This document shows, piece by piece, positions 20,746 to 32,913 of a DNA stretch of 64,000 nucleotides. The notes beneath the pieces are model-generated. The model made no database searches and was not told where the DNA came from. It worked only from the letters and a program-made list of their open reading frames with translations. The position numbers and the translations under genes were made by a program. How positions within the stretch are numbered: position 1 is the stretch's first letter; each line of letters starts with the position of its first letter. The stretch is from Hydrococcus rivularis NIES-593 (GTDB lineage: Bacteria; Cyanobacteriota; Cyanobacteriia; Cyanobacteriales; Microcystaceae), in NCBI RefSeq assembly GCF_001904635.1, contig NZ_MRCB01000024.1, positions 1-64,000 on the forward strand, read 5' to 3'.

Positions 20746-20903
20746 TGTTGCCAGTCTTGTCGTTAAATCTTCTTTACTTGCTTGACAGCTAATGCTAAAC
20801 TCCCTAAGAGGATGTTTGAAAAGTATAGTTTTTGTCATGCCTAACGTAGCGCAGCGAAGCGAAGCATCTCAGCCAATGCCGAAAGATTGGGATTGTTAGC
20901 TCC

Positions 20904-20961
20904 ATTTTATTGCGCTTACAATGACAAATTCTATTTTATTGCGCTTACAATGACAAATTCT
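20904..20961. repeat. Perfect 29-bp tandem duplication
   Basis: A 29-base unit starting ATTTTATTGCGCTTACAATG occurs twice head to tail with no mismatch (20904-20932 and 20933-20961), about 85 bases before the glycosyltransferase start. Identity of the copies suggests a recent slippage or recombination event. Confidence 0.9.
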
Positions 20962-32004: not shown

Positions 32005-32385
32005 TTATTTCACAATAATTTTGCCAACCATACCCGCACCGCGATGGGGTTCGCAGTAATAAGTATACTCTCCAGGCTCGTCAAAGGTGCTTTCATAGGA
32101 TTCGCCGGGAGAGAAGACAAGATTTTTGTGAGACATTTTGGTGGCTACAGCTTCATCCATTTTGCTGCTGTCGAAAACCACGTTGTGAGGAGCCAGCTTG
32201 TTGTTCACCCATTTTACGGTGTCGCCTGCTTTGATGGTCAAGGTGTCGGGTTCAAACTTCAGCAAGCCGCTGTCCGAACCCATTTTGACTGTATAGGTTT
32301 CTGCCGCAGCAGGAGCAGCGGAAATAACGAAGCTAGAAATGACTAGCAAAATGGTGGCAAGTAATACAGCTAATTTCTTCGACAT
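32005..32385 (-). CDS. petE: Plastocyanin precursor
   Basis: 126 residues. A signal peptide ([17 protein letters not shown]... ending AAPAAA, near residue 29) targets the thylakoid lumen. The mature blue-copper domain has the ligands His in [10 protein letters not shown], and Cys, His and Met in [11 protein letters not shown]. It carries electrons from cytochrome b6f to photosystem I when copper is available. The ATG at 32385 was chosen; a longer frame from a TTG at 32412 adds residues not seen in plastocyanins. It is divergent from petJ, which encodes its copper-independent substitute. Confidence 0.95.
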
Positions 32386-32412
32386 TTTTGTTTGCTCAGT
32401 AAAATTACCCAA

Positions 32413-32443
32413 CTACAAAAGTTTGACAGTCTGTCTTTTGACA
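32413..32443. promoter_or_regulatory. Candidate copper-switch operator, petE-proximal copy
   Basis: A 31-bp block whose core is GACAGTCTGTC followed by TTTTGACA. The core is a perfect 5-1-5 palindrome (GACAG-T-CTGTC), and TGTCTTTTGACA adds a third half-site. It lies 27 bases upstream of the petE start codon. The same block recurs at 32487-32517 with three mismatches. BlaI/MecI-type repressors such as PetR, known to control petE and petJ oppositely in Synechocystis, bind dyads of this general form. Confidence 0.6.
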
Positions 32444-32486
32444 GGAGTCCTAAAATTTGCTTGTTTTAGATCCATAAAAGATCCTA

Positions 32487-32517
32487 CTACAGAAGTTCGA
32501 CAGTTTGTCTTTTGACA
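32487..32517. promoter_or_regulatory. Candidate copper-switch operator, petJ-proximal copy
   Basis: Second copy of the 31-bp block, core GACAGTTTGTC then TTTTGACA. It is in the same orientation as the first copy and 74 bp from it, about seven helical turns. It ends 60 bases before the petJ start. The GACA-N3-TGTC dyad is kept while the centre varies, which is the pattern expected of a protein-binding site. Confidence 0.6.
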
Positions 32518-32577
32518 AAAGATCGACCGTTGCCGACGATAATCTACGGTTCGATACGCAAACGAGAGGAGAACTCA

Positions 32578-32913
32578 ATGAAAAGATTTTTGTCTTTAAG
32601 CTTGCTAGTTTTGGCATTGTTTACTTTAACCTTTACTCGTCCTGCCTTAGCTGGAGATTTAGCCAAAGGAGCTAAGTTGTTTTCTGCTAATTGCGCTGCT
32701 TGCCATGCCGGTGGCAAGAATGTAGTCAATGCAGCGAAAACGCTGCAAAAAGGCGATTTAGAGAAGTACAGCATGAATTCACTAGAAGCAATTAAGACTC
32801 AGATTGCCAAAGGAAAAAATGCTATGCCAGCTTTTGCGGGTCGCTTGAGCGAGCAAGAAATCGATGACGTAGCCAATTATGTCTTGTCTCAAGCAGAAAA
32901 AGGTTGGTCTTAA
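32578..32913 (+). CDS. petJ: Cytochrome c6 precursor
   Basis: 111 residues. The signal peptide [15 protein letters not shown]... ends PALA near residue 25. The mature class I cytochrome c has the haem motif CAACH and the axial Met in NAMPAF, and ends in the usual VLSQAEKGW. It is the soluble lumenal electron carrier that replaces plastocyanin when copper is scarce. AGAGGAG precedes ATG 32578; an upstream in-frame start at 32512 is not needed and lies within the operator copy. Confidence 0.95.

Follow-up and report, generated by a model that had tools for sequence, protein, structure and literature searches.

According to the available text of four reports (PMC7896320, PMC13421787, PMC10141476, PMC12292863), PetR of Synechocystis acts as a repressor of petE and an activator of petJ, and PetP degrades it when copper is present. 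In Synechocystis sp. PCC 6803, PetR corresponds to slr0240 and PetP to slr0241 (PMC13421787), the petE and petJ promoters have been shown to be bound by PetR (PMC7896320), and the reported targets of PetRP are petE, petJ and slr0601-slr0602 (PMC12382314, PMC7896320). The opposite outcomes of PetR binding at petE and at petJ are described as unexplained in a commentary (PMC7896320), and no PetR operator sequence is given in the available portions of PMC7896320, PMC13421787, PMC10141476, PMC12292863, PMC4284471, PMC4182526, PMC3503970, PMC6262485 and PMC12382314; the primary PetR paper (doi 10.1073/pnas.2017898118) may describe one.

The genome of Hydrococcus rivularis NIES-593 contains a single BlaI-family match (E 4.5e-30), with a Penicillinase_R domain, and the adjoining ORF encodes a protease with an M48 match over the cut-off and an M56 match below it (23.8 vs 31 bits). 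By homology, this BlaI-type gene with its adjacent M48/M56-like protease gene has the petR-petP layout of Synechocystis sp. PCC 6803, where petE and petJ are the targets, as is proposed for Hydrococcus; homologues of petR and petP, for which a preliminary description of this DNA had proposed a search, are thus both present and adjacent. The two systems differ in that petE and petJ of Hydrococcus diverge from a common gap that holds a palindromic element in two copies, whereas the two genes are far apart in Synechocystis-type genomes (G062, G208). The Synechocystis-type label of genus g2 comes from the similarity of its plastocyanins to PDB entries 1j5c and 1pcs, which we take to be of Synechocystis origin. 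In this genus, the dyad of the element was found at petE in 5/5 cases, and the element was found at petJ in the two cases examined and, in 1/1, before a small GLTT-repeat gene that follows a TrxR-like gene. The last of these loci is probably the counterpart of slr0601-slr0602, since slr0600 is a TrxR-like gene (PMC4182526), also named DDOR (PMC6262485); the element-bearing genes of Synechocystis-type relatives therefore fit the published regulon.

The operators of CopY, BlaI and MecI (TACANNTGTA; for CopY, RNYKACANNTGTMRNY, PMC7253601), which are regulators of the same family as PetR, are also short palindromes, as is predicted here for the PetR operator. Their half-sites are KACA and TGTM separated by N2, whereas those of Hydrococcus are GACA and TGTC separated by N3, and the Hydrococcus element has in addition an extended arm, AAGTTT, and is joined to a putative -35 box on one side. 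A cop box was considered and rejected, as the KACANNTGTM core was not found and the GACA-N3-TGTC spacing is one base longer. The score of PetR against the CopY_TcrY model (43.3 bits) is far below the cut-off of 121.95. In phage lambda, CI bound at OR2, one operator between the divergent promoters PR and PRM, blocks one promoter and helps the other. One operator with opposite effects on divergent promoters is what we propose for Hydrococcus; no kinship of sequence or protein with lambda is claimed, and the signal in the Hydrococcus model is, in contrast, copper-driven proteolysis.

We propose that the element is a PetR operator whose position and orientation set its effect, such that petE is repressed and petJ activated without copper, and we give this reading a probability of about three in four. 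The model is built on sequence, conservation, co-occurrence with PetR, the opposite orientation of the element at the two genes and its fixed spacing at petJ, with the actions of PetR and PetP taken from Synechocystis; from these we infer that PetR binds in Hydrococcus, where transcription starts, that PetR contacts the polymerase and what copy A does.

Two copies of one element between petE and petJ

The window, i.e., the whole stretch of 64,000 nucleotides that was analysed, contains petE on the minus strand and petJ on the plus strand (ATG at 32578) on either side of a 192-bp gap (32386-32577), and Pfam matches to Copper-bind and cytochrome c (Table 1) agree with the initial naming of these genes. 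Copies A and B of the element in the gap are direct repeats that are identical at 28/31 positions with starts 74 bp apart, and the coordinates of the two 31-bp copies and their three mismatches had been described exactly. The mismatches (31-mer positions 6, 12 and 18) lie outside the half-sites, as had also been said; two are in the left flank and one is in the N3 centre, and GACA, TGTC and the third arm TTTTGACA are free of differences. The repeat is one of three direct-repeat families found in the window (length of 28 or more, seed 11, copies separated by no more than 500 bp). A tandem pair of 29-nt units, 97% identical, is present at 20901-20958, and a short palindrome, AGGAGTCCT, lies directly 3' of copy A (32443-32451); this palindrome is also found in L023 and L024 and is absent from Microcystis.

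Table 1. Features of the petE-petJ region, with positions given in the window.
Feature	Position	Strand	Description
petE, plastocyanin, 126 aa	32005..32385	-	ORF (listed from an upstream TTG), ATG at 32385; Copper-bind PF00127, E 3.5e-32
Copy A	32413..32443	+	Dyad GACAGTCTGTC at 32425-32435; third arm TTTTGACA at 32436-32443; in the predicted petE 5' leader
Possible extended -10, weak, for a further rightward petJ promoter	32444..32466	+	Hexamer TTGTTT, 17 bp past copy A; spacer ends in TTTGC
Predicted petE -10, TAGGAT	32481..32486	-	TANNAT shortly after the dyad; columns invariant in eight aligned gaps
Copy B	32487..32517	+	Dyad GACAGTTTGTC at 32499-32509; third arm at 32510-32517; proposed PetR operator common to both promoters
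Predicted petE -35 region, AAGACAAA	32504..32511	-	Formed by the TGTC arm of the dyad; spacer 17-19 bp by register
Predicted petJ -35, TTGACA	32512..32517	+	Third arm of copy B
Predicted petJ -10, GACGAT	32535..32540	+	Weak, no T at first position
petJ, cytochrome c6, 111 aa	32578..32913	+	ORF (listed from an upstream TTG); Cytochrome_CBB3 PF13442, E 9.6e-17

The window contains 2 matches to the dyad GACA-N3-TGTC where 0.61 would be expected, a count also reached by 10/100 shuffles, and the genome has 41 matches compared to 45 for the reversed control; the dyad was therefore rejected as a genome-wide signature. Chance frequency of the dyad in the genome would be in line with a promoter duplication that arose by chance or is neutral and has no regulatory meaning, yet such an origin of the repeat is highly improbable, given that no non-overlapping pair of 31-mers had more than 21 identities in any of 60 mononucleotide shuffles of the 192-bp gap, against the 28 observed, that the element is conserved across genera and that it is rare at petJ in genomes where petE was not found. 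Specificity lies in the longer element, AAGTTTGACA-N3-TGTC-TTTTGACA, which is rare in the genome. A 24-base pattern around the dyad had 4 genome matches at up to 3 mismatches (control, 0), and a search with a profile built from 42 sites, nearly all from relatives, found at least five sites below E 0.01, although weaker sites may have been missed because 150 of 3620 first-look candidates were scored. These five are copies A and B, C48:11613, C67:109664 and, with a weaker match (E 0.0013), C18:66410, after which E rises to 1.2. The suggested genome search for the dyad thus had a divided outcome, with GACA-N3-TGTC at chance and the longer element at few places (4 pattern matches and at least five profile sites).

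The element at C67:109664 (L022) is located about 300 bp upstream of a PepSY-like/DUF2231 gene pair, and that at C18:66410 (L327) between a tonB-like gene and a short ORF that is followed by an exbB-like gene (assigned by eye); neither has a petJ-type -10. At the petR locus of Hydrococcus (L001), no profile match above 10 that could point to autoregulation of petR was found.

Position and orientation of the element at the two promoters

Among 80 petE loci retrieved, 25 have the divergent petE-petJ arrangement, and at least one profile match was found in the gap of each (25/25), a count that is partly circular because the profile was trained on these gaps. Comparison of the petE-petJ gap in relatives, which had been put forward as a check, thus shows the element to be conserved. 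With loci and regions chosen among the matches listed, the window's own regions left out, one short petE region (L214, <100 bases) dropped and thresholds set after looking at the data, the dyad was found in 30/42 petJ upstream regions of genomes with PetR, always in the forward orientation and with the third arm (30/30), and in 32/52 petE upstream regions, where it is reversed in 30/32; 12/42 petJ and 20/52 petE regions had no dyad at threshold. The two petE regions with the best score in the forward orientation (L212, L213) also hold a reversed dyad. For genomes without PetR, the dyad was found at 2/27 petJ regions (G205, which is 91% complete, and G190) and at 1/16 petE regions (G190). Shuffled regions gave 1/42 and 0/27 for petJ and 1/52 and 0/16 for petE, with and without PetR, respectively.

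On the petJ side,.A..AT is found 17 bp (27 sites) or 18 bp (27 sites) after the third arm in 54 of 58 petJ sites (reduced from 61 by removing repeats of the same downstream stretch, and including one of PetR-less G190), compared to at most 7/58 for any other spacer from 8 to 29. The TTGACA of the third arm fits a petJ -35 box rather than a part of the repressor dyad; TTTTGACA, previously assigned to the operator, behaves as such a box in both its spacing (54/58) and its forward orientation (30/30). The first base of the -10 hexamer is G in 34, C in 11, A in 9 and T in none of the 54 sites. A conserved weak -10 together with a good -35 beside an operator is expected of an activated promoter, and petJ should need help because its -10 is consistently without T at the first position. 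Another reading of TTTTGACA is that of a third PetR half-site, instead of or besides the -35 box, with PetR binding as an extended oligomer. A third GAC is indeed found at 30/30 petJ sites, and the arm is kept as TTTGGACA at copy A of six Crocosphaera/Cyanothece-type two-copy loci, where it makes a poorer -35, but the arm is absent from 19/25 stand-alone petE sites (it is present in 6/25 of these vs 7/7 divergent ones) and has a fixed distance of 17-18 bp to.A..AT at petJ, which makes a third half-site unlikely. With TTTTGACA taken as a -35 box, copy A may also be followed by a weak petJ promoter, as TG is found just 5' of the hexamer after copy A, with a spacer of 17 or 18, in 17/18 two-copy loci (the exception is L051). 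A scan of the petE-petJ gap for consensus promoters found no match.

On the petE strand, TANNAT was found about 10-12 bases past the dyad in most rows compared and at 9-12 bases in 26/30, which is not an unbiased rate because the rows were picked by hand, mostly from 48, with near-duplicates, Crocosphaera/Cyanothece rows and petJ-side tandem copies dropped and at least one Synechocystis-type row added. The GACA half-site would then serve as the petE -35, with 17-19 bp between it and the -10; spacers of this length are long for a clean -35, which counts against this model. The common -10 distance does not fit the Crocosphaera/Cyanothece and four Nostocales-like petE promoters; at Crocosphaera-type copy A, for example, TATAAT lies about 17 bp past TTGTCA (e.g., L032, L035). 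Judged from promoter geometry, the operator lies over the -35 or the spacer in every petE variant, which is a repressing position. For the window, a petE promoter at copy A was considered and set aside because it is the -10 beside copy B that is conserved; copy A fits a petE promoter better in Crocosphaera-type loci such as L032.

In an alignment of eight gaps, copy B is the most conserved block, and the petE -10 columns to its left and the petJ -10 columns (.A..AT) to its right are invariant. In the window, the predicted petE and petJ -35 regions are back to back on opposite strands at 32504-32517. Copy B is the sole copy in the gap of Gomphosphaeria. Across the loci, the arrangements form a series that runs from a single operator common to both genes, through operators separated by 18-24 bp (in several loci of Xenococcaceae and Pleurocapsales type, with 138 bp in L067 and L072) and two copies at a distance of 60-80 bp, to unlinked genes. 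In L023 and L024, the first half-site has TAC, not GAC, in both copies; such a change in parallel could point to gene conversion or to an altered PetR specificity. Cyanobacterial-type petE loci were also found in assemblies labelled Gracilibacteria (L024) and Chloroflexaceae (L053), which are probably mislabelled or mixed bins.

Occurrence of the element with PetR and at other genes

Of 388 genomes of the class, 241 have a PetR match at E 1e-10, a threshold at which other genes of BlaI type may have been counted too, and 220 have a 22-base pattern of the element (up to 2 mismatches). The pattern is present in 208/241 genomes with PetR compared to 12/147 without, so that 33 PetR genomes lack it; these counts were cross-tabulated from hand-copied lists whose totals agree, and they are not independent because the genomes are related and many of the PetR-less ones belong to one small-genome family (f18), so that a Fisher p-value for them does not count as independent evidence. 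The reversed-pattern control was found in 41/241 and 6/147 genomes, respectively; it too is more frequent with PetR, and the genomes with PetR are mostly larger. No PetR match was found in 8 genomes of the order, one of which (G255) has a pattern match. Where PetR is present and petE was not found (no match at E 1e-15), petJ keeps the element in 1/7 genomes, compared to 33/35 where petE is present, as scored by hand, not blind, with the full profile above 12, a lower threshold than that of the orientation count, and with the weak cases G038 and G192 included. The two petE-bearing exceptions are G114, in which a second petJ copy has the element (L335), and G069.

The 12 PetR-less genomes that have the pattern could also mean that another regulator, which co-occurs with PetR by happenstance, binds the element. 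PetR-less G190, whose divergent petE-petJ locus (L177, L207) retains a degenerate element, would be consistent with this. However, several loci have the element between petR and the next divergent gene, the element sites of Synechocystis-type genomes fit the reported PetRP targets (PMC12382314), and PetR itself binds the Synechocystis petE and petJ promoters (PMC7896320); a regulator other than PetR is therefore quite improbable.

At the element sites examined away from petE and petJ, which for the receptor and DsbD_2 groups are in other cyanobacteria, recurrent genes downstream encode a secreted His-rich protein, TonB-dependent receptors (L315, L317, L320, L154, L135), DsbD_2/ferric-reductase-like proteins (L314, L318, L319, L156) and GLTT-repeat proteins; these genes are 'forward' by construction because only genes in the element's forward direction were searched. 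One member each of the TonB (L315), DsbD_2 (L314) and GLTT-repeat (L309) groups was checked against Pfam, and the others were grouped by eye. A link to the Anabaena TonB transporter IacT (PMC4284471) is a lead only.

The His-rich family was found in 53/195 genomes, and among the best 30 loci, 29 have petJ, petR or the element within flanks of about 1.5 kb; the exception is PetR-less G035, where petJ is about 1.5 kb from the His-rich gene. Invariant His and Trp residues were found in 22 sequences of the family, which has no NCBIfam match and one Pfam match (L146) far below the cut-off. In Hydrococcus, the C48 site (L021:59-1449, L330) is a PetR-type element with GAAAAT 17 bp past TTGACA, about 50 bp before a TPR gene, and the gene after the TPR gene encodes a secreted His-rich protein that has no Pfam or NCBIfam match and has relatives beside petJ or petRP. 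The C48 His-rich protein is possibly a copper-deficiency protein.

Proposed copper switch and its meaning

In the proposed switch, PetR would bind the dyad (A)AGTTTGACA-N3-TGTC. Without copper, bound PetR would keep RNA polymerase off petE because the dyad covers the petE -35 and spacer, and as the same dyad lies just upstream of the petJ TTGACA, PetR beside the polymerase would aid petJ. With copper, PetP would degrade PetR, such that petE is freed and petJ falls. Copy B (32487-32517) could serve both promoters at once, and copy A, some 30-60 nt inside the predicted petE leader, could add to the petE block as a further PetR site and may also drive a second, weaker petJ start. The mode of action that we infer for copy A is the least certain part of the model.

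A shared PetR operator for both genes had already been suggested, and that part is upheld by an element that is conserved, tracks PetR and occurs at few sites, while the dyad alone does not serve as its signature. The further suggestion that one looped complex switches both genes is not needed, because the petJ-proximal copy B alone carries both predicted core promoters. A loop or cooperative pair, in which the two genes switch only if PetR occupies the two copies, separated by about seven helical turns, would account for the spacing of 71-74 bp in 16/18 two-copy divergent loci, where the distances to petE (29-85) and petJ (52-172) vary, and cooperation between the copies is possible. This spacing may also be shared by descent in related loci, however, and the copies are 80 bp apart in L032 and 60 bp in L051. 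Moreover, Gomphosphaeria has a single copy in its gap, and 13/15 petJ loci (PetR genomes, match above 15 bits, window left out) have one match in about 3.3 kb; of the other two, L172 has two matches before petJ and L187 has its second before another gene. A requirement for both copies is thus doubtful, and the petJ-proximal copy is preferred as an operator common to both promoters.

The 29-bp module could, in addition, be both a strand-coded switch, which represses leftward and activates rightward by the placement of the -35, and the head of a copper-deficiency regulon that is wider than that of Synechocystis and includes the His-rich secreted protein tied to petJ/petRP, TonB-dependent receptors and DsbD_2/ferric-reductase-like membrane proteins; we hold this joint reading tentatively, at slightly less than an even chance. 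The geometry offers a cheap and direct test of the opposite PetR outcomes, i.e., inverting or shifting one short element. Furthermore, the operator would help to predict copper-deficiency genes across cyanobacteria and would permit tighter copper-controlled expression tools in laboratory strains.
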